From contig BDDD01000919.1 in assembly GCA_001972305.1 (NCBI GenBank), positions 430,768-494,767 of the forward strand: DNA of 64,000 nt, read 5' to 3'. Below are positions 14,866 through 64,000 of this stretch, piece after piece (positions within the stretch are counted from its first letter, which is position 1; each line of letters opens with the position of its first letter). The notes under the pieces were generated by a model. That model had not been told where the DNA came from, did no database searches, and saw nothing but the letters and a program-made list of their open reading frames with translations. The stretch is from Cephalotus follicularis (taxonomy: Eukaryota > Streptophyta > Magnoliopsida > Oxalidales > Cephalotaceae). The translations under genes were made by a program, and so were the position numbers.

Positions 14866-16029
14866 TATTGGCTTTTGCCACCCCTTTAAATGTGTCAAAT
14901 AGTGATATTTCGATGATTAACAAAATTGAAATACTTGTATGCATATTTTGATATCTTACAAAATCATCTACTCACTTGATTTTATGTCCAAAGTATTGCA
15001 AAGTTTAAAGTTGCAGATTCAGGCAAAAACAGTCGACTGCCCATGATGAACAGCCGACTGTTTAGGTTGAGTAGCCGACTGCCTGGGTTGAACAGCTGAC
15101 TGGAATTTCAAAGAATCCCATAATCTGGAATTGTACTCCATCTAGCCGACTGTATTAGGGGTCTAGCCGACTGGCAAGACAAAACAGCCGACTGCCAAGG
15201 ATCTCCAGCCGACTGTCAAGAAGTGCACATTTAGACCAGTAGCTTTTGAGAAATCCAATTTTCCAATAACAACCGACTAAAGCAGGGAAACAGCCGATTG
15301 TTTTGGCAAACAGTCGACTGTCAAGTTCATCCAGCCGACTGCCTTCACCAACGGCTATAATCATAAATGCACAACAACTTCTCCAGCCGACTGCCAAGAA
15401 AATCCAGCCGTCTGGATTTGGTCTGAAGTTTAAAAATAGATCCGTTGAAGCATCTCTATATAAGAAAAAGTGAGGTATCATTAAAAAAAAGAGATAACAA
15501 GACAATACACATTTCTTCCAAGCAACTCAAGAGCAATCCTACACCTTTCAAATCAATACCGAAGCTTTGTTCAAGTATTTTAAAGCCTATCTTAGATAGC
15601 TATTGTTTGTAAGCCTTACTTAGCAATATCTAGCCTTTGAGAGGTTATTGTAAACAACACAAAACATCTTTACAATCTTTTATTATATAAGGGGAGTGAA
15701 CCCTTAGAGAGATAATCAAGGGGAGTGAACCCTTAGTAGGATTATCATGGGAAGTGAACCCAAATTTTGTAAGGTGTTTTTCTTTGATTTTCACCCGCAA
15801 TCCAAAATCAAAGGGTGCTAGTGGATTCTAGTGAAAACTCAAGGAGCTACGTTGGGAAAGTGGACGTAGGCAAGAGATTGGCCGAACCACTATAAAATTG
15901 TGTTTGCACTCTCTCTAACTCTATATCTCTTTACGTATTTAATTGTTCTTATATTCTTGTATGCTTGTTTCCGTAAGTATATTTCCGCAAATTATATATC
16001 TTTAGAAGGTTGCCTTATAAGGTTTTTCA
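14866..16029 (+). repeat. 5' LTR of the pol-less element, with 14 phased palindromic motifs
   Basis: 1164 bp. Between 15030 and 15414 there are 14 copies of CAGYCGACTG or close variants, starting at 15030, 15051, 15072, 15093, 15143, 15163, 15185, 15206, 15270, 15291, 15311, 15332, 15384 and 15405; most intervals are 20-22 bp. A TATA box TATATAAG follows at 15457-15464, 43 bp after the last motif, so the array occupies the promoter-proximal U3. Short GGGGAGTGAACCC repeats follow at about 15691-15765 in the transcribed part. Confidence 0.88.
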
Positions 16030-16084
16030 GTTGGTATCAGAGAGGTTATTTCATAATTCTTAATTGTTAGAAATATAAAGATCC

Positions 16085-17759
16085 ATGACAACTTCTATGA
16101 ATCAAAATGTAGGAGTAGAATGTTCCTCCATCTCTAGACCCCCATTCTTTGATGGAAACAATTATAGTTTTTGAAAAACTAGAATGAGAATATTTTTACA
16201 ATCCTTAGACTATCAATTATGGCACATTATTATAAATGGTCTTAGGATGCCCACAAGAACGATAGAAGGAGTAGTCTCTCTAAAACCCGAAAATGAATTT
16301 AACGATAATGATTTTAGAATGCTTCAATTAAATTAAAAATCTAAACAAGTTTTGTTTTGTGCCGTGGGTCCAAATGAGTTTAATCGTATTTCTTCTTGCG
16401 ACACGACTAAAGAAATGTGGGACTTGTTAGAAGTTACGTATGAAGGTACTAACCAAGTAAAGGAATCGAAGTATGCTTGTACATGAATACGAATTATTTT
16501 TGATGCATGACAATGAAAGTATTAGTGATATGTTTACTCGTTTTACTATGATTATTAATTCTCTTAAAAATCTTGGAAAATCTTATTCTAACCAAGAACT
16601 TGTAAGGAAAATCTTAAGGTGCTTGCCAAAAAATTGGACTCCAAAGGTAACGGCAATTGAGGAAGCTAAGGATCTCTTAACTCTTCCACTTGAACAACTC
16701 CTAGGTTCCTTGATGACACATGAGACAACAATGAAGAATCATGAGCTTGTGGAAGTCAAAAAGAAGAAGACGATTGCCTTAAGAGCCTCGAGGGAAGAAA
16801 GTGAAAGTGATGAAGAAGGAGATATGACGCTTATAACTTCTCAATTCAAGAAGTTTCTAAAGAGTCAAAAAGGCAAAAAGGCCTTAAAAAAGAAATTCCC
16901 TCAAGAAGAAGAATCAAGAAAAAGGGAAGAGCCAACTTGTTATGAATGCAAAAAGTCGGGTCACTTCAAAAACGAATGTCCAAATCTTAAAAAGAAAGCG
17001 CAATTCAAGAAGAAGGATGAATACTCAAAAAGGAAGAAAGCAATGGTAGCCACATGGGATGATAGCGATCCCTCAAGCTCCGAAGAAGGAAGTGATGAAG
17101 AGGTTGCAAACATTGATTTCATGGAAATTGAGGATGAGGATGAAAATGAGGTAAATTTTACTTTTGATGAGTTGCAAAATGCATATGAGAACTTGTTTAA
17201 CGAATATGAAAATGTTTGCTTGAGAAACAAGTCTCTAAAGAAAAATGCTATTTCAATGTCTAAAGAAATTGAAAATCTAAAGAGTGAAATTAGCAAATAT
17301 ATAAGCGAAATTGAATCTATAAAAAATGAGAAGAGTTACTATATGAATGGGATTGACGTTTTAAATATTTCTTCAAAATTATCAATTGATTTTAAGGAAG
17401 AAAATGAGAAGCTAAAACTTGAAATTGATGCTTTGAAGAAAACTTTTACTAAGTTTTCTAATAGTAGTGACAAGTTAGATAATCTTCTAAGACTTCAAAG
17501 GTGTGTATTTGACAAAGTCGGTCTCGACTATGAAGAAATGAATAATGTCAAACACTTTAATAATTTCATTGTTAAGAAAGTAGAGCCCAAAATTTCTTGC
17601 AACTATTGTGGTAGACTAGGACATATTTTCACTTCATGCTTCCATAGAAAGAATATTGGTAAAACTAAGAAAGTTTGGGTTCCCAAAGGAACCATTTTGA
17701 CTAACCCTCAGACTCAAATTTATTTGGGTACCAAAAGTTTAAATTTCCTTACTTTGTAG
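16085..17759 (+). pseudogene. Gag of the pol-less SIRE-like element (5' part broken, rest open)
   Basis: Capsid-type gag. The likely start MTTSMNQNVGVECSS is at 16085, but stops near 16172 and 16336 and a frame change near 16473 break the first part. From 16473 an open frame of 428 residues carries the UBN2-like gag region (DMFTRFTMIINSLKNLGK; ILRCLPKNW), a basic KKK-rich segment, a CCHC knuckle CYECKKSGHFKNEC (about 16939-16980), an acidic serine-rich linker, a predicted coiled coil (about 17170-17480) and a second knuckle CNYCGRLGHIFTSC (about 17599-17640). It ends WVPKGTILTNPQ shortly before where pol should begin; instead the frame closes at 17759 and no protease follows. Whether the intact 3' part is translated is unknown. 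Confidence 0.82.
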
Positions 17760-18231
17760 GTGTGCTCGAAGGAAATGGTACTATGAAAACATCAAGCTAA
17801 ATATGATCACAGTGAGCACATGAGTAGTAAGTGTTTTGGTAGTAAATATCATGATATTTGTTTGATTATGTGTTTTTGAATGTAATTATGTGATTAGATG
17901 TATATAAAATGTTTTTTGAACTCATGTTTTGCATCCAACATTAAGTTTTAACTCAATCATCAAATATCTAAATCACTATTAGTTAATAATAGCTGATTAT
18001 GGATTTTCAGATCAAAGAGAAACTCAAAATTTGCCTATTTCGAGTTTTGCAGATTCCAGCCGACTGGTGTCCTGATCCAGTCGACTGTCACATATCCAGC
18101 CGACTGGCTCAAAACAACAGTCGACTGTTGACACACGAATCAGTTTTTTATAAATGCGATTTTCCCCCTCTCTCTAAAACTCTCTTCTCCAAACCTAAAC
18201 CTTCTCCGAAAATTCGCTCATACTAATTTTC
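17760..18231 (+). promoter_or_regulatory. Spacer replacing pol, with motif array and TATA: possible internal promoter
   Basis: Where pol should be, only about 470 bp remain. It contains four copies of the same decamer found in the LTR (18058 CAGCCGACTG, 18078 CAGTCGACTG, 18097 CAGCCGACTG, 18118 CAGTCGACTG; spacing 20, 19 and 21 bp). A TATA box TATAAAT follows at 18149-18155, then a CT-rich leader at 18163-18210 and the ATG of the extra ORF at 18232. The order motif array, TATA, leader, ORF copies the LTR promoter. Promoter activity is an inference. Confidence 0.6.
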
Positions 18232-19362
18232 ATGGCATCCAAGAAGAGGAAAAGCATGGGAACCAAGCAGAGAAGCTCAAATCCAGTAATCGATTTTGAT
18301 GACGACCTTTTTCTCTCCAAGGAAAATGAAGAGAGGTATAATTCCGTCCTTAATTCAGTAAAGCTCCATAACGAAAAATGGTTAGATAGAGAGATTTTGA
18401 TTAACAATATAGTTTCTATTAGGTCTTGGCTTGAACATTTGGGTTGGTTTGACTATTTGTGTTCATCTCACCTAATTTACCCTAGGTTAGTAAAACTTTT
18501 TTTTGTTAATCTTGAAAAAACCACTAGTTGTGTAGCAAAATCGTTTGTTCTTGGCAATGCTGTTGAAATTACCCTTGATTTTATTGCCGAAACTTTAGGT
18601 ATTCCATGCACCGGTATCACTCACTTTAATGATATTGAAAAATCCGATGCTTTGGAAATTTGCTTAGAACGGTCCGATTTCAATCCAATTATGACCGTTA
18701 CTAGCAGCCACTTGCCCATTGCTACTTGCATACTCTTATTACTTGTCACTAATACTTTGTTGCCTAGAGAGGGCTCGCATACACTACCATCTGAGCGAGA
18801 CCTAAAATTAGTGGCTTGTATAAAAAATGGAACTCTTGTTAACCTTTCGTATCTCATAGTTAACAAAAATTTATCTAGATTACATCACCTTCCCTATCTT
18901 ATGCTTATTAGTAGGGTTCTAGCTTCCCTAAACATTGGTATTGAGGATGAACACAATGTCAAACCCAAAACTAAGCAATTAATAAACAAAGCCGGGCTTA
19001 AGAGTTGCAATATCAAGTTTGAAGATGGTTTATGGGTGAAGCAACAAGCGGTAGGGAGAGCACCCATGAAGGAACCGGATGTTGGTGTTGGTAGAGATAA
19101 CGCGAAAGAAGAAGAAGAAGAAGATGATGGGGATCGATTTGAAATGAGGCCAAATGTTGAAGGAAGTAGTATTGGAGGTAGTAGACCTACCATGGAGTCA
19201 CTTCAAGCAAGGATGGATTTAGTCCAAGCCAACATTGAATACATTAGAGGAAGAGTGGATCAAATCTATGATCGCCTCGATTCGCAAGATGCACAAATGG
19301 CCCAAGCGATCCAAATGCTCCAAAATGCCTACCCTCAACACCCACCTCTCGGATCATCTTGA
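18232..19362 (+). CDS. Extra ORF of the SIRE-like element (plant transposon protein domain, envelope position)
   Basis: An uninterrupted 376-residue frame in an element whose gag is damaged. The start MASKKRKSMGTKQRSS is basic and looks like a nuclear localisation signal. Residues about 45-240 resemble the 'putative plant transposon protein' domain seen in extra ORFs of plant retroelements (NNIVSIRSWLEHLGWFDYL; IAETLGIPCTGITHFND; LARD-like leucine-rich stretch CILLLLVTNTLLP). Residues about 285-305 are an acidic EEEEEDDGD run, and 325-365 form a heptad-like coiled coil (MDLVQANIEYIRGRVDQIYD). I see no signal peptide; the one hydrophobic stretch (ATCILLLLVTNTLL) is short. The position corresponds to the env-like gene of SIRE elements, but the sequence gives no proof of an envelope function. 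The function is unknown; a role for a nucleic-acid-binding protein is equally possible. Confidence 0.75.
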   Translation: MASKKRKSMGTKQRSSNPVIDFDDDLFLSKENEERYNSVLNSVKLHNEKWLDREILINNIVSIRSWLEHLGWFDYLCSSHLIYPRLVKLFFVNLEKTTSCVAKSFVLGNAVEITLDFIAETLGIPCTGITHFNDIEKSDALEICLERSDFNPIMTVTSSHLPIATCILLLLVTNTLLPREGSHTLPSERDLKLVACIKNGTLVNLSYLIVNKNLSRLHHLPYLMLISRVLASLNIGIEDEHNVKPKTKQLINKAGLKSCNIKFEDGLWVKQQAVGRAPMKEPDVGVGRDNAKEEEEEDDGDRFEMRPNVEGSSIGGSRPTMESLQARMDLVQANIEYIRGRVDQIYDRLDSQDAQMAQAIQMLQNAYPQHPPLGSS

Positions 19363-19981
19363 GCGACATTTCATGCATATCATGTTTTTCTTGTAGTGTG
19401 TGATGAAAATGAACTTGTAGTGAACTTGTAGTTTTATTGTGAGATGATCTTGAAGTTGTGTAATGAATTTGCACTTTGATTATGTAATGAAATTTTTAGT
19501 GTGTTTACGAAATGGATGTGTTTTATAATGTGTTCTCCTAAATTTTCCATTCTACATTGTTGTCAATGATTAGTATTTCATCTCCCTAAATAATTAATCT
19601 CTTCATTGGAATTGAATTTGTGTACGCATTCGTTAAGGGGGAGCTTTGTTGCTCAAGCACTTTGTTAATGCTTAAACATATGCATTGATTAAGGGGGAGC
19701 TTCGTTAATTTTTTTTTGTTGTTTGACAAAAAGGGGGAGAGTTTATATAGTGTAGTCAAATATATGATGTTGTCTTTTATTTAATTTGACTATGCATACA
19801 AAAAGGGGTAGAATTGTTTAAGTATGCATTATCCTATATGAAATGTGTTGCTCAGTCACTTTGAGAAATATTCTAGACTTGACTTACTGGAGTTTGGTTA
19901 ATATTAGAGGACTTAAGTGATAAATTTGTCAAAATTATGCAAAATTAGTCTTGTTTTGTCAATCATCAAAAAGGGGGAGAT
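19363..19981 (+). repeat. 3' untranslated region with five polypurine-tract-like repeats
   Basis: Between the extra ORF and the 3' LTR, purine tracts of the form AAGGGGGAG recur at about 19635-19643, 19691-19699, 19729-19740, 19798-19811 (one base changed) and 19968-19980. The last is at the correct position to prime plus-strand DNA for the 3' LTR. Multiple tracts are known in SIRE-lineage elements. No ORF of note. Confidence 0.7.
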
Positions 19982-21119
19982 TGTTGGCTTTTGCCACCCC
20001 TTTAAATGTGTTAAAGAGTGATATTTCGATGATTAATAAAAATGAAATACTTGTATGCATATTTTGATATCTTACAAAATCATCTACTCACTTGATTTTA
20101 TGTCCAAAGTATTGCAAAGTTTAAAGTTACAGATTCAGGCAAAAACAACCGACTGCCCATGATGAACAACCGACTGTTTAGGTTGAGTCTCGCCTGGGTT
20201 GAAAAGCCGACTGGAATTTCAAAGAATCCCAGAATCTGGAATTGCACTCCATCCAACCGATTGTATCAGGGGTCCAGCCGACTGCCAAGACAAAACAGCC
20301 GACTGCCAAGGATCTCCAGCCGACTGTCAAGAAGTGCACATTTAGATCAGTAGCTTTTGGGAAATCCAATTTTCCCACAACAGCCGACTAAAGCAGGGAA
20401 ACAGCCGACTGCCAAGTTCATTGAGTCGACTGCCTTCACCAATGGCTATAATCATAAATGCACAACAACTTCTCCAGCCGACTGCTAAGAAAATCCAGCC
20501 AACTGGATTTGGTTTAAAAATAGATCCGTTGAAGCATCTCTATATAAGAAAAAGTGAGGTATCATTAAGAAAAAAAAAAGGGATAACAAGACAATACACA
20601 TTTCTTCCAAGCAACTCAAGAGCAATCCTACACCTTTCAAATCAATACCGAATCTTGGTTCAAGTATTTTAAAGCCTATCTTAGAGAGCTATTGTTTGTA
20701 AGCCTTACTTAGCAATATCCAACCTTTGAGAGGTTATTGTAAACAACACAAAACATCTTTACAATCTTTTATTGTATAAGGGGAGTGAACCCTTAGAGAG
20801 ATAATCAAGGGGAGTGAACCTTAGTAGGATTATCACGGGAAGTGAACCCAAATCTTGTAAGGTGTTTTTCTTTGATTTGCACCCGTAATCCAAAATCAAA
20901 GGGTGCTAGTGGATTCTAGTGGAAACTCAAGGAGCTACCTTAGGAAAGTGGGCGTAGGCAAGAGATTGGCCGAACCACTATAAAATTGTGTTTTCACTCT
21001 CTCTAACTCTATATCTCTTTACGTATTTAATTGTTATTAAATTATTGTATGCTTGTTTCCGTAAGTTTATTTTTCCGCAAATCATATATCTTTAGAATGT
21101 TGCCTTATAAGGTTTTTCA
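19982..21119 (+). repeat. 3' LTR of the pol-less element
   Basis: 1138 bp, close to the 5' LTR but with 12 instead of 14 decamer motifs (20146-20505), a 19-bp unit lost near 20402 and one motif lost near 20188. TATATAAG at 20541-20548. Ends GGTTTTTCA followed by the duplication AGGTA. Confidence 0.88.
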
Positions 21120-21124
21120 AGGTA

Positions 21125-24990: not shown

Positions 24991-24998
24991 AGGAAGAG

Positions 24999-30042: not shown

Positions 30043-30151
30043 TAAAAAGATAATTTCATTCCTCCTTAAATTTAGATTTAAACAATTCGTTTTGCAAACA
30101 TATATGGTTATTATGTTAATTTATATATAGATCATATATATTAATTTTTTA

Positions 30152-35500: not shown

Positions 35501-35871
35501 GTCTCTTTCATTCTCCAAAAGCTCAGCAGCCCTCTCCATTCTTTCACCTTCCTTTTATAGACACAGACGAATACTCTAGAATTCTCTCCATATTTCTACA
35601 ATTTCTTTTTCTGAATTGGGCTAGTGAACTTGCTGGTCGGCCCACTCTTCCTTCAATCCAATATGGCCCAAGTCTCATTTGCATCCTTCTATAATAACAT
35701 AGCCCACTAGTAACATGTTTTAGGCCCGAATTCCTCCATTATCCATTTATCAATCGGCCCAAGACCACGGAATATTTCAAGCCCAATTCTTTATTAATTC
35801 AATTTATACCCCAGTACATTTTGGGGCCCAATTTTCATCCTTTAATTATTTATAAAATTTCGGGTATTACA
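32540..35871 (-). mobile_element. Solo LTR (3.3 kb, Tekay/Del-like ends), perfect duplication TGTTA
   Basis: The unit starts TGTAACGCCCC and ends GGGTATTACA, flanked by TGTTA at 32535-32539 and 35872-35876, and interrupts the Tat gag/protease junction. No internal domain is present, so it is the product of recombination between two LTRs. On the minus strand a TATA box (TATAAAAGG, about 35556-35564) lies some 310 bp from the start, arguing for minus orientation. A minisatellite of GGTTCACC...GGAATTC units lies at 33176-33400, and repeated GGACGCATG words occur at about 34190-35020. Many overlapping ORFs in the GC-rich part are not genes. The family is shared with 47920-50358. Lineage is inferred from the ends and length only. 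Confidence 0.88.
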
Positions 35872-35876: not shown

Positions 35877-38800
35877 TCCACACCATCTCTGGGGGGGGGG
35901 GTCGCGTCTGGTGGCGACCACAAGAATGCTAAAAAAGCCTATGGGAGGTAATTCCTTACTGTGCAACTGATTCATCATAGCAAAAGGCTGAGAACAGGTG
36001 GAGATGAGGAGGTGATATCCTTCTTGGAGGCGGACTATAAGGGATTACGTCTCCCTCATGATGATTCAGTGGTGGTAACTCTTCAAGTGGCACTTTTCAC
36101 TATGAAGAGGATTCTCATTGATAGCGGAAGCTCGACTGATATCCTGTATAAACACGTATTTGATCAGCTAAGGATACCAACCGACCAGCTAAAGCCCGTG
36201 AAGACCCCACTAGTTGGCTTTGTAGGGGAGATGGTCCATCCTCTGGACTCCATCGACCTGTCCATGGTTGCAGGCACGACCCCACGCCAGACCTAGGTGG
36301 AGATGACGTTCCTGATAGTGGACACACCAAGCCCTTACAATGCCATAATAGGGCGACCGTGTCTGAACTTAATGGAGGCGATAGTGTCCACAAGACACTT
36401 ATTGATGAAGTTCCCTACGAGGTTTGGAGTGGGGGAAGTCAGAGGAGATCAACAGGCGGTAAGATAGTGCTACAAGACTGCCATTATGGATAAAGGGAAG
36501 GACAAGGTACTTCCTATTGCAAATGTGGTGTGACGACCCGAATTCCCTCTTTGTACTATTCATGCATACATTGTACCGTATTGGATCATATCGAATTTTA
36601 TTGAATTGAGGTATTCCTATACCTATTGTTATTGTATTGATTATATGCATGTATAGTCGGGATTTTGAGCTGAGTTTCGGAGAGTTGGTCGACTTGACTA
36701 TATAAGTCAATTTCTCACTCTCATTATCCCATTCTTCTCCCTCTCTCTATCCTTCTCCCCCTCTCTCTCTTGCTGGCAGCCTCCCTCCATCTCCCTGGCA
36801 GCTGGATTTGCATCTCCGTCAATAAGGATATCTCTTGCAAGCTGTGGGTGCCGATTGAACAAGAAAGTAGCTGATTCTTAGGTGATTTCAGCCGATTGAC
36901 CGATCGTTAGCTCAACTTTTGAAGCTTCGTTAAAGGTAGGACTTCCCTACTTGATTCCCTATTGCTTAATTGCATAATTGATTGAATGATTGATTGAATT
37001 GAGTGATTGTATTGAATTAAAAAACTAGGGTTTTTATTGATTTCCCTGATCTAACTGATCTAGGAGGATTGAAATTGAATTCTGAAAGTTGTAAAAAGTT
37101 TTAGTAACCTCAAATGATTGATTTTAAACCTTGGTTTTCAAAGAATGGCTTTAAATTGTATTTTGGTATGAGATTGGCTGGTTTTCTGCATAAAAATGGA
37201 CCCTGCCCAGCAAAGACATCGATCCCTAGCCCATGGACATCGATGTCTTTTGCTTGAGATGTCGCATCTTTGGTTTCTGCAGCAAAGACATCGATGTCTT
37301 TCAAAGACATTGACGTCTTTGCCCAGGAGTTCTCTTCTTTGAGAAAGACATCGATGCCGAACATCGATGCGCATTTACAGGTTATTTTTAATGAAACGTG
37401 TTGACGCCTTTTCCCAAAGACATCGATGTCTTTAAGCCAGATCTCTATACAAATAGAGAAAGACATCAATGTCTTTCAAAGACATCGATGTCCTTCTACA
37501 GTTTTAAAGAAGTGCCCTGAAATGCATCGACGTCTTTTGCCAAAGACATCGACGCCTTCAGTGCAGAATGGGATTTTAACTATTTTAAAAGCTGATTTTC
37601 AACTCTTTTTCACATCTCCGCTTGACCAAAATCTCACTTGAGGTATTCAAGCGTTTGAAACACAATTTTCTACGGTTTTCAAAGATTGAATTGACAAATT
37701 GCTAGAGTGACGGATTGAGCCATAGGCGATGATCCAGTGATTTTTATCAACCGGATGGACATTTCTTCCCATCTTGTTGATTCGATTGTCACCGTCTATT
37801 GGCTACTGACCGATTGATTGATTGATTGAGCCATAAGTGTTGTGAGTCTAAGTTTGGAACGTTGGACGCACATTCTCATTTCTCCATTTGACATCACTAC
37901 TTATCGGCATTGTACTGACAGATTGATTGATTGTATTGTATGGATCCTATAGAGTGAACTTATGACCCGCATCGGCATGTTAGGTTATCGACTTTGTCCA
38001 CCTAGTCATTTATTGTATTGATCTGCTGACGAGCAATACTGTTATTGATTGATGATTGATGCTCCCGGAGGGTCGTAGCTCCCTAACGGTATAGTAGCTC
38101 CCCATGGTTGTAGCTCATCGATATTGTATTGACCCAGCCGTAGGCTGGAAGACCTATGAGTCCCAAACCTGATCAGTTTGAGACAAATGGGTAGATCTCC
38201 CACCCTTTTCGAATGACTACCTTCTATGGGATTGATCATTACTATTAATTGACATTGTACTGGCCCGAGGTCGCATGCTCTATAGGATATTGTTTGATTG
38301 ATTGAGTGTTTTTACACTACCATTGGGTGTCTGCTATTGATTGATTGTTATAGATCCTGTCCGTATGTTCTGTTATGGGCCAGGACATGTGGATAGTCAG
38401 ATCGCCAACTGTATTCATGCATTTGCCATATCATGCATTGATATTGTACACAGCACATAAATATTGCATAGATTGTCACCGATATTGCACATTGTACATG
38501 TATACATGCTGCATGAGGTTTCTGCTTAGCTAGTGTGGCTAACCCCATCCTTCGGGCTGGGGCTGTGTTGTACATTTTGTGTGCGGCATAGGTAGGGCAG
38601 CAGGTAGCAGCGGACAGAAGGATTAAAGACTCGATTTGATCGCACGACTGCTTGGGTATCGCAGAGCTGGTTGTGAGATATTGTAGTGAAATGATTGAAA
38701 TGTATTGTATTGTAAAAGATTGGTATTGTAAAGGATTTGTACTGTATGTATGGTTTATTGTATTGTATCTTCCACACAATGATATGTATTGCAAAGTTTT

Positions 38801-41800
38801 AAGTTTTTTCGCATTTTTATATTGCTAGTCCCGACCACTGTATTGTGTATTGGATTGAGAGTAATGCCACGTGTTCGTTCTACGGGAGCGGGGTGTTACA
38901 TGTGGAGCTCAGAGGAGACGTGGAACCTGAGTGCCCACAGCCTGTTGAGGACGTGATCCAAGTGCCCATGGAAGAGGGCAACACTGAAAGAGTGTTCCAA
39001 GTTGGCTCACAACTTGGAGAGGTGGAGAATGGGGAATTAATAACATTCCTCCAAAACAACAAAGATGTTTTTGCCTGGTCGGCAGAGGAGGTCCCGGGGA
39101 TCAGCCCAAATGTAATGGTTCACAAGCTAAGTGTGGATCCAATGAGACCTCTGACCAGGTAAAAGAAGAGGAACTTTACTCTTGAGAGGCAGTAGGTAAT
39201 AGCCGAGGAGGTGAGCAAGCTATTGCAGGCAGGGTTCATAAGGGAAGTGCATTACTCAGACTGGTTGGCGAACCCAGTACTGGTCAAAAAGAAAATGGCA
39301 AGTAGAGGATGTGCATTGATTTCATAGACCTCAACAAAGCTTGTCCCAAGGATCACTTCCCTCTTCCAAAGATAGATCAGTTGGTGGATGCGACCTCGGG
39401 CTACAGAATGTTAAGCTTCTTGGATGCCTACTCGGGATACAATCAAATCCCTATGTACGGGCCCGACGAGAACAAAACAACTTTCATCACGGACCAGGGG
39501 ATGTATTGTTACAAAGTCATGCCCTTTGGACTGAAGAATGCAGGGGCCACCTACCAACAACTAGTCAACAAAATCTTTGAGCCTCAGATTGGGTGAAACA
39601 TGGAGGTCTACATCGACGATATGCTCGTCAAGACCCCAGCCAGGAGCCCCCACATCAAAGATTTGGAGGAAACATTTGAGGTACTGAGAAGATACAAAAT
39701 GAAACTCAATCCATCCAAGTGCATTTTGGGGTCACCTATGGTAAGTTTCTCGGGTTCATGGTCTCAAGCAGAGGAATAGAGGCCAACCCAGAGAAGATCT
39801 CAGCAGTTCAGAGTATGAGGCCTCCCTAGACCATCAGGGATGTTCAAAAGCTAAATGGAAAGATTGCAGCCCTGAGCAGGTTTGTGTCAAAATCAGCAGA
39901 GAAGTGACTCCCACTCTTTAAGGTGCTCAGGGATCCTAGGGGATTTTCCTGGTCAGACGAATGCCAAGCAGCCTTCGACAAGTTGAAGGAATACATGGTT
40001 TCCCCTCATTTGATCTCAAAACCTAAGGACGGGGAAGACTTGTATTTGTACCTTGCGGCCTCCTCTGGCGCAGTGAGTGCAGTGCTAGTCAGGGAGGAGG
40101 AGAAAGTTCAGAGGCTGGTGTATTATATGAGCAAGGCTTTGAATGATGCTGAGAGGAGGTACCCAGAGGTAGAGAAGTTTGCCTATGCTCTGATCATAGT
40201 GGCCAGAAAATTGAGGCCATATTTTCAAGCCCATACAATCAAGGTTCTGACTGACAAACTGCTCAAACAAGTTCTTGCAAAACCTGACACCTCAGGAAGA
40301 TTAATCAAGTGGTCAGTCGAACTAGGCGAGTATGATGTGAAGTTTGAAGCCAGACCAGCAATCAAATCACAGGTCTTGGCCAACTTTGTTGGAGAAAATA
40401 CACCTACGAAGTGTATGGAGGAGAACCCCTTTGAGAATGAGAAGGGGATGTGGAAGTTGTCCGTGGATGGCTCATCCCGCGTCACTGGCAGTGGAGTAGG
40501 GCTGGTATTAACAAGCCCAGATGGTTAGACGTTGGAGTATGCTCTGAGGTTTGGGTTTAAATCTATGAACAACGAAGCTGAGTGGGAAGCTCTGATAGCT
40601 GGGCTGACAATTGCAAAGCACTTGGAGGTGCAAAAGATAGAAGCCTCCAGTGATTCTCAGCTAGTAGTTGGTCTGGCAAGTGGAGAGTATGAAGCCCGAG
40701 AAGACTCAATGTCCAAGTACTTATTGCATTTTCAGAGTTTGAAGTCAACCTTCGAAGTTCTAAGAGTTTTGAAAGTACCCAGAGCAGAAAACGCCCGAGC
40801 AGACCAGTTATCAAAACTAGCCACGACGGAGGAGCTGGAGAAGAACAAAACCGTGTTAGTAGACTACCTGGACAGACCCACCATCTCTGCAGTAGACGTG
40901 ATGGACATAGACTTACCGCATGAGCCAAACTGGATGACCCCATTCATCAATTGGCTGAGGAATGAGATTTTACCTGAGGACCCCACAGAGGCAAGAAAAC
41001 GGGTATACAGATCAAACAGATTTCAGCTCCGAGACGGGATCCTCTACAAAAGGTCTTTCTCTTTTCCTTGGCTGAGATGTTTGACCCCCTTAGAGGCTGA
41101 TTATGCTCTAAGGGAAGTCCATGAAGGAGTTTGTGACAACCACACGGGGGGCAGGACATTGTCCCACAAGCTATTAAGGCAGGGCTACTACTGGCCGACC
41201 TTGCATCAAGATGCTATAGACTTGGTAAGAAAATGTGACAAGTGCTAGAGGAACACAAACATAAGCAGAAGACCTTCTCAACCTCTGACGTCTATCACGA
41301 CCCCTTCGCCCTTTGCACAATGGGGGATGGATTTCGTCAGACCACTACCCGTGGAGACAGGCCAGAGGAAGTTTCTCATTGTAGCAGTGGATTATTTTAC
41401 CAAGTGGGTAGAAGCAGAACCCCTGGCCACAATCACAGAAGCAAACACGGAAAGTTTTGTATGGAAATCCATTATCTGTAGATTCAGAGTCCCAAGGACA
41501 ATAGTCACAGACAACGGAAAACAGTTTGATTGCCAGACGTTCTGTGACTTTTGCAAAGAGTGGAGAATAGGGCATAGGCTTGCCTCCGTAGCCTACCCCC
41601 AGAGCAACGGTCAAGCCGAGGTGATCAACAGAGAAATCATCTCGGGCTTGAAGAAGCGCCTAGAAGACAACAAAGGAAGATGGACATAGGAGCTACCAAG
41701 TATACTGTGGGCATATAGAACCACTCCTCAGACCACAACTGGTGAGTCCCCATACAGCCTTTGTTTTGGAGCTGAATCTATGATACCGGTGAAGATTGGT

Positions 41801-47919: not shown

Positions 47920-50358
47920 TGTCATGCCCCGAACCGTGGGTTGGGCCCCACAATTCGACACGTGGCATTCCGTACAAACATCATAAAATTATCCATAAAA
48001 ATTTAAAACTTAATTAATAACAAACATAAATCATTTGTTTAACGTGTGGATATATATAAACACAGTTCAATACAATTAAATACATTGCTGCACCCAGCAG
48101 GTGAAACAAATAATTACATAATTATTTCCTGCAATCTCGTCCATAAAAGCGTACTGTCGAGGAGGAACTTACACAATCCTTTATCCTTAGTGTTGTTGCG
48201 ATGTGCCTCCACTACCTTTTCCTATACCTGGCCCATTCAAAGGAATGGGTCAGCAACCCTGGGGGTTGTGTAGGTTACCAAATATACGGGCACATACCAG
48301 AGGAACATCCAATAAAAGCAGAGGAGAATAATAATATAATAAATGCATATCATGAAGGCAGAACACAATTCATATCATAATCATAATCATCCTTTGTCCT
48401 CGGACTACTCTACTCAAATCACACATATCATTCACATAACAGAGGAGTCTAGCCCGGTCATCCTATGGTTTGGTCAGTGTGTAAGGTTCACCTTTAGGCT
48501 CACCTGCCTGCGAAATTCTCCTCCAGGTTCACCTGCCGAGCGGAATTCGCCCTTTGCTCACCTGCTCTGGCGGTTCACCCTTTGGATCACCAGCTTTGGC
48601 AGAATTCACCTTTAGTTTCACCATTAGGCGGATTCGCCCGCGATCACCTGCCTCGCGGAGTTCACCCCTTGGGTTCACCTGCACGGCGGAATTCTCCCCT
48701 GTTGGGCTCACCTGCCTGGAACCTTCCTTAAACATCCTTTCCTTTTACATTCCATTTTCTAATTCCATTTCCTTCCTTTTATTATTTCCTTTTTGTCTCT
48801 TTGTCCATTAAGCGCCTCCCGGGTACAAAAGGAGCATGGCACCTTCTCATGCTCACTTAACAAATGCATGCAGGGAGTATGACAGGGACGCATGCATACA
48901 CATATACTATTTCCTTCTTCAATAGCGCATGCAATGAGTGCGTACTAGGGCACAACGCATGCCCAGCCTGCACGTTCGCTCGGGGCAGGGGAGAGCTCGT
49001 CACCGTCACCTATTCGGGCGAAGGCAGAGGAGAGCTTGGCACCGTGTGGGGCATGCTTGGGAAGCATGGATTATGGGCGCAAAGGCACCCCAGGTGAGAA
49101 ACTTCCTGGCATTCATCATGGCACCTCAGCCCGGCTTTTCTTTCCTCTGGCGTCGTCACCTTGCATACATGGCACCCCTGGCACTAATGCAGCTCGGCAT
49201 GGGAGCTCGGCATGCACTGGAGGGGAGCTCGGGCCTTGCATGGAGCTCGGGCATGGTGGGAGCTCGGGCATTGGCCTCGGCAGCTCGGGCATTCACCTTG
49301 GCAGCTCGGGCATTCACCTCGAGCATCTTCTCCTCAGGCGCATGTCACCCCGGGAATCTTGCATTTCATGCCTTGGACGCATGATCCATACTTGCCAGCG
49401 ATGAAGGGAGCTCGACGCCTGCCAGGGAAGGCGCGGCGAGTAGCCATGCCTGGACGCATGGCCAGGGGAGCTCAACTCCACCATGGCGCCTTTACCTTGA
49501 CATCTATGTGCATTTTGCACTGTTAATGCGTACCAAAACGAAGCGCTAGGGATGAAATGCTCAAAGCTTACGCGTGCAGGTTAGCATTATATCGAGTCCC
49601 GTGTTCAACAATAGCATAACTTACATAATTACCAATAACAAATCATAATACAAAAGCAACCAAGTAATGAGCACACACAAAAAGCAAACATCAACAATCA
49701 CACACACAAACATGCTGGTAGGCACTCGGATATGGAGTAACCTACCTGGAAAACGGTTGGAAACGGAGATTGTCTTCTTCCTTCTTGAATTCTGGACTCT
49801 CTTCTGCCCAAGGGCTGCTACACACTTTAGGTTGCCAATATTCTCCTTCTTTATACCCTTTTCCTTGCTTCCAGGAGACGGGTATTTATACACGGGGCAG
49901 GAACTCTCCCGAGTAAGTCCCCAACTTGTCCTCTTCTTCCTTTCTCCAGCATCTGGCCCCATCTCCCATTACTCTCATTTTTCTCTTGATTCCTCTAGAC
50001 ACAAGAGTGTGTATAATGGCAACAGTGTGTCCCTCGGCATTTCTTCCTTTTAAATACATAAGCTGAAGGTTCCAGAATTCTCTAGGCAATTTCCAACAAA
50101 TGCAGGCCATTTCTTCTCCTTTGGGTCGACCTCCTCCCTTGGGCCTACTTCCTTTCTTTCCTTCATTAAAGGCCTAATTGCAACATACCATACTAAATTC
50201 ATCCCAAGAAGAGAAATAGTTTCCTTAAGCCCAAGGTCACAATTTATATTCCGTTAAGGCCTAAATAAATACATCATAAAATTCAGACCCAACCCAAAAG
50301 GCAGGAAAATAATTACAAAGCCCCCTATTAATTCTTTATAATATTGAGGGCTATTACA
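47920..50358 (-). mobile_element. Solo LTR nested in a solo LTR; duplication GGTAC
   Basis: Starts TGTCATGCCCCG and ends GGGCTATTACA, flanked by GGTAC at 47915-47919 and 50359-50363. It shares the GGTTCACC...GGAATTC minisatellite (48483-48720) and the GGACGCATG words with the 32540-35871 solo LTR, so the two belong to one family, but it is about 0.9 kb shorter. On the minus strand, TATA-like GTATAAATACCC (about 49885-49898) fits minus orientation. Overlapping ORFs in the GC-rich part are not genes. Confidence 0.88.
48483..48720. repeat. Minisatellite of GTTCACC/GGAATTC units in the solo LTR
   Basis: About ten degenerate units of 21-30 bp alternate TTCACC-type and GGCGGAATTC-type words. The same array is at 33176-33400 in the related solo LTR. 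Unit order differs between the two copies. Confidence 0.7.
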
Positions 50359-52464
50359 GGTACAATCAATCAGTACAGTTGTCCGAAGACCACTGGGTGT
50401 CAAACGTCGCCACCTCCTAGCCCCAACGATGCACCACCTAATTATCACCATACACTCCGATGATGACAGAAAAGGTAAACAGTATTGCCGGTATTTAGTG
50501 GGCAATTAACAGTCAAGATCTGCAGTGCAGATAAGTTTGGTGTATAAGCTCTACCCAACTCCTGGCACCTAGGCCCACATTCGTAGTCAGTGATACACTC
50601 CGATCACTAGACTAACAAACTATCAATCACAATCAATATCAATTCAGTTATTACATATATAATGTAATATAAACAGTAGTTCTCATTTAGTAGAGAAAAC
50701 AGTAAAACAGTAACAGTAGGTTTTCCTTAGAGAAAACAGTAGTTAAAACATTTAGTTGTGCATATAGCATTCAGTTCTTGAAATCCTTGAAACAGTAGTA
50801 ATTATAGAAATTACTTTGGTAGATATAAAATCTCTATAACAATTATCACTTTCAAGCAATATGTAGTTTGCTAACAACAGTACAATCATAATCGATTTCA
50901 AGAATCAAACAATAATGATGCATAAACAGTTCAATTCATATAATCCAACTACCCATAGTAAGGATTGATTATTAGAATCATTCATAAATAGGAGAAATTA
51001 TCTACTGTTCCAGTAAGGCGTCAACGTGTATCTTAGGCGTCAACATTTATTTCTCTTTGGCGCTAATACTCTTTAAAGCAGACACTTAAGCGTCAACATT
51101 TTCCTCGTTGGCGTCGACATTAATCTTTATCATCGACGCGTAAGGTAGGAACCTTACCCGTCAACGTTTCACTTGGCGCAGATGCCTCTTAAGACAGACC
51201 CTTTTAGCGTCAACGTTGTTTTTTGGCATCGACGCGTTAAGGTAGGAACCTTAAGCGTCAACGTCTCTCTTTGGCGTAGATGCCTTTTAGGACAGAGACT
51301 TAAGCGTCAACGTGTTTTTCGTTGGCATCAACGTTTATCTTGAGTTTGTGTGTTCTTTTCAACAAAACAGATTATTCAACCATATCCATTCCAACACAGT
51401 ATGAATTTAACAGTTCAATTCAGTCTAACATCAACATGCAAACATATATACACCATCCTAACACAATATACATGTCATAAACCCTACCTCAGTTGCTATC
51501 CCAGAATCAATTTGGGTTGATTCTTCTCTTTACACTCCAATACTCCTCCAATTCAATCTTCAACCATTCCACAGAAACAATCCATTTGCATGTTAACGTT
51601 ATGTACAAAAATCAGTATATATATATATATATATATAAAACTGATTAACTATAACACAATCATTGAATTCAACCAGATGCTTACCAATTCCTGTTTAAGC
51701 CTCAAGTTCCACTATGAACTCCATTTTAGCATGAACTCAGTATAGTAGATGGACTTCTCTCTTTCCAAAAGATTTATAATCCGCAATTCGACTTACAATA
51801 GTAGCTGATATAGAGGAGTTATTTCAGTGATTCGTCTAAACTGCTAACTCAAGTTCTTACCATTTTCTCTTCTCCCTCTCTACTCCACTAATTCACTGTT
51901 TTGTTTTCTCTTCTCAGTTTGCAGGTTACAGGAGCTCAGGACACTGAGCTCTTCAGTAAATAGTAGTTAGCGCATCATGTTGCTTAATTCACCATAGTTT
52001 GCCACGTTCCTTTTCCATTTAACATCATCAAAACACCTCCAAGTGAAAGCCACACATATCATCTGTTTTCTTTCCATTGACAAGCATCATAACACTTATC
52101 TGGGTTCAACGCGTCAACGTCTTACTTTGGCGTCGACGTTTACGCGCCAAATTTAATTCCTTTTATTCTCGTTCAATTGACACGTATCAGCACACTTGTC
52201 TAGATCAAGGCGTTGACGTCTATCTTTGGCGTCGTCGTTTATGCGTCAGACTTTAGCTTTCCCAAGTTTCTTTCAATAACTCCCAATTTAATTCAAGTGA
52301 GTCCTTCATTCATCTCAATTCCATTCAATTAAGCCCTCAACTTAACCCAATAACAATTATTAGCTTAAATCAATAAACAATTAAGCATAAACTTCAATTC
52401 AATGTATAATTTATTCATCGTTATACAATATACATTAAATTAAAATTGCGGTTATTAGAAGATA

Positions 52465-53614: not shown

Positions 53615-53622
53615 TTTGTTCT

Positions 53623-54576: not shown

Positions 54577-54584
54577 TTTGTTCT

Positions 54585-55122: not shown

Positions 55123-55123
55123 C

Positions 55124-57363
55124 TGATGGAATCGGATTAACCAATTCCTATGCCATAAATGGACTAAGGTGCAAATGGTGAAGAACAAAACTTTTAGAGC
55201 ATAAATGGTAGCGAAAGAACACCCAACAAAGGCAAAAACAGTCCATTATGGCTTGACCATAGGCCATATGGATCACCACATCAATACTTAATTGAAAAGA
55301 TGTCACCATTGGAATCAATGGTGACATACAAGCAAAGCAAAAACAAGGGAGGCAAAAGGATATACCAATAGGTGAAGGCTCCTTCGTCTTTGCCGCTTCA
55401 AGCTTGCAAAGACTCCTCCTTCGTTGCACTCCAAGTCGTTATGCTGCTGCTCCAAGCAAGAACAGCTACTGTCCAGCAATGATGGAAACAAACACATAAT
55501 TTCTATTCACTCTTTCTCTCTCACAATGCCTATGAAGGATGCATTGATGTTGACAAGGTTTGTCAATGTCAATCCACCCTAGATAAGCTACAAAGCTTGG
55601 TGTATAATCACAGAAGGAATGCCAAGAGAACCAGAGAACCCCCTTTCTATTTTTCCTAGCAGAAGCCCCAGTAAAAATGCTCTCTCCTGGAATGCCTTAT
55701 ACCAGCCCCATTTCTCTCCCACTCTAAAGCTCAACCTCACCTCCACTTCTTGATCATGTTCCTATCTTTGAGGAATCATGGAACCATGATCTAATCATGT
55801 CCCCCATCATGCAGAGAAAGGAGTAAACCATCGGTAATGGGAGTTAGTGGGAGAGAGAAAACGTGTGCATGATTTTGTCCACTCGGGGAACCCACGTCGC
55901 GCACTAAGTGTCGACGCCTTCCAATAAGCGTCGACGCTTATATGTAATAACACTATACGTTTCAAGTGTTAAGCGTCGACGTTTTCCTAGAATGCGTCGA
56001 CGCTTTGTCTAATGTTACACGTCGACGCTTTCCTAGAAGGTGTCGACGCTTAGACAGGCTGGTTAGGAAAATAGAGTCTAACTCTTAAATGAGTCTAACT
56101 CATTTTATCCCTTCTAATATTGATTAAGTAAGATCAAGTAAATGTGTTCTCACAAAATGCAAGATCCACCTAACCGATATTTGATTTTATAAATTTTCAC
56201 CAAGGCTTAATATGTCCAACATATTTATGTACTAATCATTATCAGGCAGGGACCCTATAAAATCTTGGTTAAAATCGAAGGTGTTCATAAATGATCAAAA
56301 TACCCCTAGGGTTTGGTTTAGCCATTCTAAATGATCCTAGATCAATTTAAATGCTCTCAAAATAATATCTAATATTATTCAGATGGAAAAATTAATCTAA
56401 TTAATTTTCCCATAATCTATCACACACCTCATTAACCCTAGATTTTCTAAGTCGTCGGTTCACGTGTACTATAATCCCTTGTCATGCTTGGCCCCGATTG
56501 AGGTCTAGGGTAAGGATATGTGTCAATCCTAGATAATACCTCAATGGCTAAAATATCTGATCATTACTAGAACCTTTGGTAAACTCTTCAGAAATCTAAT
56601 TTCCAGTCTACCTCAACCTTGGCCAAGGATTTCATAAGTCCAAAGTATAATCAGATCATAATAGAGCCGATCACCTTCGCTCAGGTGTGACAATCCCATA
56701 TTGCGCACTCACTTATATTCGTATAGATTCGATCATACCCAAAGACCACCCGATTGCCAGCCCTGCGCAAAGACCGGGTAAGGTGGAGATCAAAGCATAA
56801 CCGTCTCCATACAATATAGAGCAGTCGCTCAGGTCTAAGGATCAGACGAGTTTGAGAACTCGCTAAGTGATCATCACTTATACACAACCGCAACAAGTAG
56901 GAGCCACTACTGACACGAGAATAGCGACTATCCAAACAGTGTCTCCTACGCGGGTCCTGTTCAGTGTACACGCTCCCAGCGCGTACTCCGTATTTACCCT
57001 AGTATCCAACACAGATGGTAGTGAGAGAATCCATCCTCCAATTCCATGAGCAAGCAACATACGCGCAAGTCTATCCAGTTCATTAATGCCCACAAAGTGA
57101 ACCTATGACTTGGAACCAATTCGACATAAGGAATAAGTTAACCAATCTCACAGCCTCCATGCTGGGCATCTAACCTTATGTCAGGGCATCACAAGTGTAA
57201 GCAGGTATATAATAAACTACTTCAATTAAATGATAAAACACAAGTGATATAGCCATAACGAAATTAGCACACATCATCTATACAAGGAATAAGATTGTTT
57301 CATACAATATAAGATATAATATGACAACCCATCTAATGGTTTGTCGGGTCACTATATCTAACA
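55124..57363 (-). repeat. 3' LTR of the minus-strand copia element, with GTCGAC motif array
   Basis: Six GTCGAC-centred words (best form AAGCGTCGACGCTT) start at 55910, 55930, 55975, 55996, 56021 and 56042. In LTR orientation they lie about 200 bp upstream of a TATA-like GGTATAAGG (complement, 55696-55703). Confidence 0.85.
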
Positions 57364-61210: not shown

Positions 61211-61486
61211 TTTATTGGCCGTAAGGACGATCTTGAGGTTATAGAAAACCATAAACTAGGTCAAAGTCCTTTTTCGGGCCATCCATTGTGCATAAGACTT
61301 ATATTATATCCAATATAATAAAACCACAAAAAATAACACATGCCATAAATAATAACTAATTATAAAATTTAATTTAAGGATTGTCTATGTTGGTTAAACT
61401 CCCACTAAATCAAGCAATGATTTTGATTTTCTAAGTGTCACAATGTATAAAATCCAATTTTATTAAAAACATATTTTTTTAATGCT

Positions 61487-61637
61487 AAAGCATCGACGCT
61501 TCCCAGAAGGCTTCGACGCTTACCTCTAAGGCGCGACAAATCAAAAAAATGAACAAGTGTCGACGCTAAGACAAGGCGTCGATGCATATAGTGAAAATAG
61601 TTGAACAAGCGTCGACGCTTAAACGGGAGCGTCGACG
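61487..61637. repeat. Second GTCGAC motif array in the 5' leader of the minus-strand copia element
   Basis: Between the primer site (61949) and the gag ATG (61210), words of the form GCGTCGACGCTT or close variants start at about 61492, 61512, 61532, 61559, 61578, 61611 and 61631. They are the same motif as in this element's LTRs but not part of a duplicated LTR segment. Confidence 0.75.
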
Positions 61638-61961
61638 CTATAACCCCCTGGGCAGTTTCTGCAATTCGAAAAATTGCAAAAACTTGGTTTTGAACATTAG
61701 GCAAATTCAATTCCAGTCATTTCCAGACAAAATACAGTCATATACTACACCATGTAGGTTTCCAAAGCATGTTCAAAACTCAATTTAACATAATCTCTAA
61801 GATTAATTATCAATGAAATCCAATTTCATAAACAAGTTCATTAAGGCACTTTGAATATCAAGTTTAACCCAAACAACACATCCTTTAAATTAAACCTTCA
61901 ATCAGTACATCATTCATAGCACAAATTCAACTAAGGACGATGTGGGACGCTCTGATACCAC

Positions 61962-64000
61962 TGATGGAATCGGATTAACCAATTCCTATGCCATAAATGG
62001 ACTAATGTGCAAAGGGTGTAGAACAAGACTTTTAGAGCATAAATGGCAGCGGAAGAACACCTAACAAAGGCAAAAACAGTCCATTATGGCTTGACCATAG
62101 GCCACATGGATCACCACATCAATACTTAATTGAAAAAGATGTCACCATTGCAATCAATGTTGACATACAAGCAAAGCAAAAACAAAGGAGACTTAGAGAT
62201 ATACCAATGGGTGAAGGCTCCTTCGTCTTTTCCGCTTCAAGCTTGAGAAGACTCCTCCTCAGTTGTACTCCAAGTCGTTATGCTACTGCTCCAAGCAAGA
62301 ACAGCTACTGTCCAGCAATGATGGAAACAAACACACAGTTTCTTTTCACTCTTTCTCTCTCACAATGCCTATGAAGGATGCATTGATGTTGACAAGGTTT
62401 GTCAATGTCAATCCACCCTAGATAAGCTACAAAGCTTGGTGTATAATCACAGAAGGAATGCCAAGAGAACCAGAGAACCCCCTTTCTATTTTTCCCAGCA
62501 GAAGCCCCAGTAAAAATGCTCTCTCCTGGAATGCCTTATACCAACCCCATTTCCCTCTCACTCTAAAGCTCAACCTACCTCCACTTCTTGATCATGTTCC
62601 TATCTTTTAGGAATCATGGAACCATGATCTAATCATGTCCCCCATCATGCAGAGAAGGGAGTAAACCATCAGTAGTGGGAGGTTGTGGAAGAGAGAAAAC
62701 GTGTGCATGATTTTGTCCACCCAGGGAACCCACTTCGCGCACTAAGCGTCGACGCCTTCCAATAAGCGTCGACGTTTATATGTAATAACACTATACGTTT
62801 CAAGTGTTAAGCGTCGACGTTTTCCTAGAAGGCGTCGACGCTTTGTCTAATGTTACGCGTCGACGCTTTCCTAGAAGGCGTTGGTGCTTAGACAGGCTGG
62901 TTAGGCAAATAGAGTCTAACTCTTAAATGAGTCTAACTCATTTTATCCCTTCTAATATTGATTAAGTAAGATCAAGTAAATGTGTTTCCACAAAATGTAA
63001 GATCTACCTAACCGATATTTGATTTTATAAATTTTCACCAAGACTTAATATGTCCAACATATTTATGTACTAATCATTATCGGGCAGGGACCCTATAAAA
63101 TCTTGGTTAAAATCGGAGGTGTTCATAAATGACCGAAATACCCCTAGGGTTCGGTTTAGCCATTCTAAATGATCTTAGATCAATTTAAATGCTTTCGAAA
63201 TAATATCTAATATTATTCAGATGGAAAAATTAATCTAATTAATTTTTCCATAATCTATCACACACCTCATTAACCTTAGATTTTCTAAGTCGCCGGTTCA
63301 CGTGTACTATAATCTCTTGCCATGCTCTGCCCCGATTGAGGTCTAGGGTAAGGATATGTGTCAATCCTAGATAATACCTCAATGGATAAAATATCTGATC
63401 ATTACTAGAACTTTTGGTAAACTCTCCAGAAATCTAATTTCCAGTCTACCTCAACCTTGACCAAGGATTTCATAAGTTTAAAGTATAATCAGATCATAAT
63501 AGAGCCGATCACCTTCGCTCAGGTGTGACAATCCCATATTGTGCACTCACTTATATTCATATAGATTCGATCATACCCAAAGACCACCCGATTCCCAGCC
63601 CTGCGCAAGGACTGGGTAAGGTGGAGATTAAAGCATAACTGTCTCCATACAATATAGAGCAGTCACTCAGGTCTAAGGATCAGATGAGTTTGAGAATTCG
63701 CTAAGTGATCATCACTTATACACAACCGCAACAAGTAGGAGCCACTATTGACACGAGAATAGCGACTATCCAAACAGTGTCTCCTACGCGGGTCCTGTTA
63801 AGTGTACACGCTCCCAGCGCGCACTCCGTATTTGCCCTAGTGTCCAACACAGATGGTAGTGAGAGAATCCATCCTCCAATTCCATGAGCAGGCAACATAC
63901 GCGCAAGTCTATCCGGTTCACTAATGCCCACAAAGTGAACCTATGACTTGGAACCAATTCGACATAAGGAATAAGGTAACCAATCTCACAGCCTCCATGT
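61962..64000 (-). repeat. 5' LTR of the minus-strand copia element (cut by the window end)
   Basis: Matches 55124-57363 along its whole visible length with scattered substitutions and a few short indels. It carries the same GTCGAC array (first word at 62748). About 200 bp are missing beyond the window. Confidence 0.87.

Follow-up and report, generated by a model that had tools for sequence, protein, structure and literature searches.

The closest described counterparts of the sequences reported here are the palindromic RM boxes of the Sireviruses, which are copia long terminal repeat (LTR) retrotransposons. According to PMC2829016 (Bousios et al. 2010; for this and the other articles cited by PMC number, statements refer to the part of the text that was available), 13 Sireviruses carry such boxes, both upstream of the TATA box within the LTR and before the ENV gene. 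The words are 10–20 bp long, number 8–32 per element, lie mostly in the upper half of the LTR, and were called specific to Sireviruses and absent from classic copia elements. Some are centred on TCGA, as in Vitis (CGGTCGACCG) and in Tnd-1 (ACAATCGATTGT). The clusters of Tnd-1, Sorghum, and ToRTL1 are without CpG islands, and an internal ENV promoter was suggested there without being conclusively identified. More in general, the cis-regions of transposable elements are often arrays of repeats, sometimes palindromic, and a maize Sirevirus palindrome has spread beyond one superfamily, occurring in Helitrons too (PMC10760457). In VANDAL21, the protein VANC21 binds arrays of same-orientation YAGTATTAY motifs (Hosaka et al. 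2017, PMC5735166), and the accessory gene of Grande is reported to have its own promoter (Gomez-Orte 2013, cited in PMC7264820). Here we analysed a stretch of 64,000 nucleotides (contig BDDD01000919.1, positions 430,768 to 494,767; hereafter, the window), in which arrays of short, often only near-palindromic words are carried by a Sirevirus copia element (E1), a solo LTR with a target-site duplication (TSD) (E2), a repeat that we could not delimit (E3), and a copia element outside the Sireviruses (E4).

The window is plant DNA holding nested LTR retrotransposons. Across the 301 residues compared, its eIF4G gene matches a Cephalotus follicularis protein at 100% identity; judging from this sequence, the host is that species or a very close relative. 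We searched the window for near-palindromic 10-mers with at least four G/C among the ten bases and at least four copies at one mismatch or fewer within 450 bp to each side, using 20 block-wise dinucleotide shuffles of the window as the null. The search returned 41 centres, compared with one in total over the 20 shuffles, and eight of its 11 groups have a TCGA core. These eight groups represent only four elements, because LTR copies and internal clusters were counted apart. Of the remaining three, two (33355 and 48484) have GGTTCACC-type words and one (34292) has a GCATGC-type word. A looser search (two mismatches or fewer, at least six copies) yielded 42 centres, forming 11 groups, whereas the 20 shuffles together produced two: five groups are TCGA-centred, one is the E3a array off-register, and five have other words. 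Overall, TCGA is depleted in the window (155 observed vs 231 expected from base composition), and 15 of the 18 perfect TCGA-core palindromes of at least 10 bp fall inside the arrays. Clustered words of 10–18 bp, mostly TCGA-centred, occur far above chance, and the arrays are real.

The first-pass annotation of this DNA had placed TCGA-centred arrays in four LTR families, and arrays are present at all four places; the E1 internal, E3b, and E4 leader clusters come in addition (Table 1). Some units are the perfect palindromes it described and many are imperfect: perfect words make up 2/14 units in the E1 5′ LTR, 4/11 in E2, 0/13 in E3a, 2/6 in the E4 3′ LTR, and 2/6 in the E4 leader. The assignment to LTR families held for E1 and E4, copia elements with LTR pairs; E2 is a solo LTR, of putative gypsy origin; the "solo LTR" at E3 was not confirmed, as a search for ends and TSD around it gave no convincing LTR ends or TSD. 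No Rfam family matched in the window at gathering scores. In viral contigs, three word-pair patterns gave 0, 8, and 0 stretches, each of the eight with only two exact words and judged to be chance, and two protein scans gave 2 and 12 pattern matches, with no relative confirmed among them.

Table 1. Positions of the repeat elements, word arrays, and associated features in the window (ORF, open reading frame; PPT, polypurine tract; PBS, primer-binding site; NLS, nuclear localization signal)
Feature	Position	Strand	Description
E1 5′ LTR	14866..16029	+	LTR pair 92% by self-BLAST; ends and TSD read by eye
E1 5′ LTR array	15030..15414	+	14 CAGYCGACTG-type units; stops 42 bp before TATATAA at 15457
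E1 internal array	18057..18127	+	4 units, intervals 21, 19, 21 bp; stops 19 bp before TATAAAT at 18147
E1 third ORF	18232..19362	+	PF20167, 376 aa, ENV position; N-terminus MASKKRKS (NLS-like)
E1 PPT	19972..19981	+	AGGGGGAG + AT, adjoining the 3′ LTR
E1 3′ LTR	19982..21119	+	array 20146-20505 (12 units); TATATAA at 20541, 35 bp past the array
E5 solo LTR	32540-35871		TSD TGTTA; end/TSD search
E2 solo LTR	36529..38900	+ (orientation inferred)	2372 bp; TG...CA ends; TSD TGTGG on both sides; TATATAA at 36699
E2 array	37213..37557	+	11 units around ACATCGATGT; the TATA box lies upstream
E6 solo LTR	47920-50358		TSD GGTAC; end/TSD search
E3a array	51018..51334	.	13 units of GCGTCAACGT / GCRTCGACGC type (12 at two mismatches or fewer); host repeat undelimited
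E3b cluster	52111..52238	.	5 units (4 at two mismatches or fewer); two 19-bp doublets
E4 3′ LTR	55124..57363	-	copia, 2240 bp; PPT AAGTGGGAG-AT adjoins
E4 3′ LTR array	55908..56049	-	6 GCGTCGACGC-type units, forming three doublets
E4 leader array	61490..61638	-	between PBS (61949-61960) and gag; 6 units, forming three doublets
E4 5′ LTR array	62746..62866	-	5 units at two mismatches or fewer; about 205 bp upstream of TATAAGG 62540-62534 (by eye)

The distances between neighbouring words are markedly regular. Counting one LTR copy per element, 32 of the 52 neighbour intervals measure 18–22 bp. Leaving out E1, the count is 19 of 36, whereas random placement would give 5.6, and none of 20,000 simulations reached it; with units at two mismatches or fewer only, the overall count is 31 of 50, and 18 vs 5.0 expected without E1. 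The intervals are 21, 21, 21, 50, 21, 21, 21, 64, 21, 20, 21, 52, and 21 bp in the E1 5′ LTR (10 of 13 being 20–21 bp), 21, 51, 19, 41, 13, 59, 43, 19, 42, and 22 bp in E2, 19, 53, 21, 19, 28, 18, 31, 19, 29, 19, 30, and 21 bp in E3a, and, in E4, 20, 45, 21, 25, and 21 bp in the 3′ LTR and 20, 47, 19, 33, and 20 bp in the leader. For single arrays, the probability of the 19–22 bp intervals under random placement, a null that ignores tandem duplication and for which paired LTRs of one element are not independent, was 0/20000 for both E1 LTRs, 0.023 for the E1 internal cluster, 0.013 for E2, 0.0025 for E3a, 0.057 for E3b, 0.014 for the E4 3′ LTR, 0.013 for the E4 leader, and 0.071 for the E4 5′ LTR.

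This regularity belongs to doublets and not to whole arrays. The first-pass spacing figures were accurate to one or two units (in E1, 10 and not nine of the 13 intervals are regular); the array-wide helical phasing read from them did not survive, and we rejected it, because in the other 20 intervals none of the five periods tried between 10.0 and 11.0 bp gave a significant phase (best z 1.44, with a mean cosine of 0.23 at 10.5 bp). The spacing is better described as pairs of words some two helical turns apart, the pairs themselves being irregularly placed, than as helically phased arrays. E4 shows the doublet unit most plainly, as its LTR and leader arrays both consist of three doublets, a matching layout which suggests that one was copied from the other. 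The spacers inside doublets are 9–12 bp long and differ in sequence. Compared with shuffles, their dyad symmetry is clear in E2, where 18-bp palindromes abut, slight in E3a (P 0.02), and not above shuffles in E1 or E4 (P 0.11 to 0.96).

A contrast comes from the solo LTRs E5 and E6, which have in common a 334-column stretch, 86% identical, carrying GGTTCACC-type arrays. With the 10-bp word, none of the 13 intervals is 18–22 bp; when the word is loosened to 8 bp, 4 of 27 fall in that range (two of 18 and two of 19 bp). E5 is also rich in GCATGC words, which we take to be B3/RY-like.

The words are also much more alike than the sequence around them. Within arrays, word and flank identities are 0.87 vs about 0.31 in the E1 5′ LTR, 0.83 vs about 0.42 in E2, 0.72 vs about 0.39 in E3a, 0.88 vs about 0.45 in the E4 3′ LTR, and 0.87 vs about 0.32 in the E4 leader, chance being 0.26. 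Between the two LTRs of one element, it is the word columns that differ most (E1: 0.136 in words, 0.051 in array spacers, and 0.036 in the rest; E4: 0.117, 0.012, and 0.046), and low mutability was therefore rejected as the cause of word conservation. Faster divergence is to be expected, because the words are rich in CG and CHG contexts, which make up 66% (E1) and 62% (E4) of word columns and 5% and 10% elsewhere. For E1 and E4 together, the rates per context are of similar size in words and elsewhere, at 0.127 vs 0.149 for CG and 0.175 vs 0.132 for CHG, A/T changes number 1/50 vs 8/1776, and the changes between LTRs are mostly at C/G bases and mostly transitions. In dead copies the words are thus the first to be lost, as would be expected of methylated sites, and something in active copies seems to keep them. 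Such loss, together with the apparent upkeep, argues against both neutral repeats and low mutability.

Coming to the single elements, E1 (14866-21119) has the layout of a Sirevirus. Its PPT lies 2 bp (AT) ahead of a 3′ LTR starting TGTTGGC, and is one of four AGGGGGAG tracts between 19636 and 19979 (the others start at 19636, 19692, and 19732). The LTR arrays, of 14 and 12 units, are upstream of the TATA box in the upper LTR half, beginning 164 bp into each LTR (200–400 bp for published Sirevirus RM boxes), and a further cluster precedes the ORF in the ENV position, as in the published elements. The CGG-CCG core signature of Sirevirus RM boxes is absent from the E1 word CAGYCGACTG; this core is not obligatory, since the published Tnd-1 word is also without it. 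On these sequence features, E1 is an example of the RM boxes of PMC2829016, and for this element the first-pass statement that no description was known fails.

AGGTA flanks E1 outside both LTRs (14861-14865 and 21120-21124, read by eye), a TSD to be taken with caution, as the automatic search gave a different pair and the 5′ LTR starts with TA and the 3′ LTR with TG. Between the LTRs there is a copia gag (PF14223), and no pol was found among ORFs of at least 150 aa. With gag and the PF20167 ORF inside, E1 seems non-autonomous. Its commonest word is found in a single orientation, with 12 exact copies of CAGCCGACTG and none of CAGTCGGCTG. After the internal cluster (18127-18260) come a TATA-like box, read by eye as TATAAAT and outside the pattern used for the TATA scan, then a pyrimidine-rich stretch, then the ATG of the third ORF at 18232. 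The third gene would thus seem to have an internal promoter, for which we propose this region as a candidate. The internal cluster was also considered as a copy of the LTR region, which was rejected: with the motifs masked by differing letters, the best match was a 24-bp stretch out of line with the array, scoring 23 where 300 shuffles reached at most 24 (P 0.007), and a distant kinship is possible.

The third ORF of E1 belongs to a protein family in which PF20167 was matched in 27/27 members. It has 294 relatives at E ≤ 0.001, and the 120 matches listed are all named from Cephalotus follicularis. In the family alignment, 10 of the 27 rows start with MAS and a basic run, which we read as NLS-like, and most others begin further in. 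The maximum 19-residue hydropathy is 1.81 in the E1 protein and 1.22–1.78 in 26 relatives. The AlphaFold model is poor (mean pLDDT 41), with a C-terminal helix (321-366) predicted at low confidence. A sequence-profile search of the PDB (E ≤ 10) gave five matches, the top two being PilJ (E 3e-4 and 4e-4) over the helical C-terminal part, which we read as coiled-coil resemblance only. Our guess is that this protein has a nuclear instead of an envelope role.

E2 has TG...CA ends, a 5-bp TSD, and no internal domain, as a solo LTR should. Pieces of gypsy reverse transcriptase (RT), RNase H, and integrase are found on its right (38900-41690), and two ORFs on its left had no Pfam match; the insertion of E2 may have split a gypsy element whose pieces lie on its right. 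E2 is without a coding part, and its ends resemble what we take to be chromovirus LTR ends. E4 is copia by PF07727/PF14223 and has an LTR pair; its 5′ LTR, which the PBS adjoins, is truncated by the end of the window. The E4 PPT is not that of a Sirevirus, with no GGGGGAG from the LTR to the RT, and on this ground we provisionally keep E4 apart from the Sireviruses. A GGTAGG stretch resembling a 5′ splice site occurs near the arrays at 36933 in E2, 35398 in E5, 49741 in E6, and about 52466 in the E3 region, and the arrays of these four might sit in a leader intron.

Taken together, we consider it probable that the arrays serve LTR retrotransposons as cis-regulatory clusters of binding sites, like those published as Sirevirus RM boxes. 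Each word, with its approximate dyad symmetry, would be bound by a dimeric nuclear protein, and a doublet would hold two sites about 20 bp apart on nearly one face of the helix, where two dimers could bind together. In E1, the word precedes two kinds of TATA-like box, which would serve the LTR promoter and the apparent internal promoter of the third gene. New units would arise via short tandem duplication, coherently with the similarity still left among the E1 spacers; in active copies, selection would retain the words while the spacers drift; and after insertion the words would decay as other CG/CHG sites do, presumably through methylation. Binding by a dimeric protein fits best because the words far exceed their flanks in likeness, the doublets of about 20 bp have differing spacers, and the E1 clusters lie upstream of TATA-like boxes. 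The cooperative dimer binding suggested in the first pass is thus retained, without its array-wide phasing. The same reading is supported by the agreement of the E1 layout with PMC2829016 (Bousios et al. 2010) and by the GGTTCACC arrays of E5 and E6, which have few or no such doublets.

Several points weigh against this explanation. The words were defined from these very arrays and the units picked by likeness, which raises word identity; the random-placement null leaves duplication out of account, and the 19–22 bp window was set from a first look at the same data. The spacers of E1 resemble one another more than shuffled spacers do (0.32 vs 0.25, 0/2000 shuffles), and since tandem duplication also yields regular spacing, the 21-bp spacing of E1 may be inherited. 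The rates per context are not everywhere equal between words and the rest, with changes at CHG in 10/57 vs 2/25 in E1 and at CHH in 5/15 vs 85/955 in both elements together. TATA-like matches are common in this AT-rich window, and the internal box of E1 was identified by eye. The E1 array is hardly raised in CpG (observed/expected 0.62 vs 0.51 in the remaining LTR), unlike most published RM clusters. In E2, provided that its orientation was inferred correctly, the array is found about 510 bp downstream of the TATA box (TATATAA 36699), and the second E4 array sits in the leader, so that "upstream enhancer" does not fit all. Lastly, the sample is small: one LTR pair each for E1 and E4, and a single copy of E2 and of E3.

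Among the rival explanations, RNA hairpins would have neighbouring words pair in the transcript and feed small-RNA silencing, as has been proposed for maize Sireviruses, or other RNA functions. Folding is strong in E2 (z −10.7), in the E4 3′ LTR array (z −8.9), and in E3a (z −4.6; 100–200 dinucleotide shuffles, run on these and the E1 5′ LTR array), and the palindromes of maize Sireviruses are small-RNA hotspots (PMC10760457, PMC5311732). The largest array, however, that of the E1 5′ LTR, folds like its shuffles (z −1.06, 15/100 as good), its main word CAGCCGACTG mispairs with itself while the complementary CAGTCGGCTG does not occur, and its doublet spacers are without dyad symmetry. We rejected hairpins as the common function on this array; E2 and E4 could be explained by them, E1 could not. 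Wherever the words are perfect palindromes, structure appears to be a by-product, and as an account of the arrays we find hairpins unlikely. Neutral minisatellite turnover, in which slippage multiplies units and the motif is merely what the search recognises, would account for the residual spacer similarity and single word orientation of E1, a 109-column direct repeat (83%) inside E3a, the repeated spacers of E4, and the choice of units for their resemblance to the word. Even divergence would be expected of neutral units, but the spacers resemble one another far less than the words do, though word bases are more mutable, and chance word matches, counted from word length, would be expected less than once per array; we hold this account to be slightly less likely still.

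Anti-silencing of the VANC type, by analogy, would have the third protein of E1 bind the arrays and remove methylation. As in VANDAL21 (PMC5735166), the words are short, in the same orientation, made by tandem repetition, non-coding, and upstream of the element's own gene, and the NLS-like start in 10/27 rows and the low-confidence C-terminal helix would suit such a protein. VANC proteins, however, carry DUF1985 and DUF287 (PMC5735166), neither of which is listed for any of the 27 third-ORF family members (Pfam, E ≤ 10, with filters that drop most very weak matches); moreover, the structure model is poor, and neither E2 nor E3 yielded a partner ORF. We regard this as very unlikely. Clustered CG methylation over the arrays, also put forward in the first pass, is plausible, as the changes between LTRs are mostly C/G transitions. 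In its stronger form, dense symmetric CG/CHG sites would act as landing pads that nucleate or sense host methylation, in line with the CG/CHG share of word columns and with CpG observed/expected ratios of 2.06 and 1.86 in two E4 arrays, 1.56 in E3a, and 2.04 in E3b, compared with 0.57 in the window (E2: 1.03). Landing pads explain neither the doublets nor the small CpG excess of E1, and they would be detrimental to the element if not read as an activator, which makes them the least probable explanation considered here.

Beyond the binding-site reading, we put forward, as a possibility we rather doubt, that one host dimeric protein or protein family reads TCGA-centred doublets of about 20 bp, and that unrelated copia and other LTR families of Cephalotus converged on them. 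The doublet would then be no Sirevirus trait but a shared "access code" spanning LTR superfamilies, driving, in ENV-bearing Sireviruses, the separate promoter of a nuclear third protein. Candidate host factors would presumably be DREB/CBF, for the GCCGAC in the E1 word, and WRKY or TGA-type bZIP proteins, for the TTGAC/TGACG variants of E2 and E3. If arrays of one kind, alike in core and doublet geometry, are indeed shared by a non-Sirevirus copia and a solo LTR of another family, different LTR lineages may depend on a common recognition geometry.

In our literature search, judged mostly by title and abstract, no description was found of palindrome arrays common to several LTR families, and the available parts of PMC12844716, PMC6911290, PMC11963269, PMC3414828, and PMC7264820 contain no such cross-family array. 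The palindrome arrays are a real, partly known feature, and what they add is modest: their extension to E2 and E4, the common TCGA core, and the doublet geometry may be new. As regards the known systems, E1 lacks the CGG-CCG core and a CpG island but otherwise fits the Sirevirus RM boxes, the available text of PMC2829016 makes no mention of a 20-bp doublet geometry like the one found here, and the TATA-like box after the pre-ENV cluster is a concrete candidate for the internal ENV promoter proposed there. The LTR palindromes of maize Sireviruses (Bousios et al. 2016, via PMC10760457 and PMC5311732) are likewise clustered in the LTR cis-region and fast-evolving, but are treated as RNA structure and small-RNA targets, whereas E1 shows no folding excess. 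The VANDAL21 motifs (PMC5735166) are also short words in dense, same-orientation, non-coding arrays made by tandem repetition; VANDAL21 is, however, a DNA transposon with a non-palindromic 9-mer and a DUF1985/DUF287 protein, and the E1 protein is PF20167. In ONSEN, sites for a host factor in a copia LTR drive transcription under stress (PMC3907296), which resembles the role proposed for the arrays. Finally, the LTR retrotransposon Grande is reported to have a gene beyond gag-pol that encodes a nuclear protein and has a promoter of its own, as may be the case for the third gene of E1; it differs in being a gypsy element with an antisense gene (PMC7264820).

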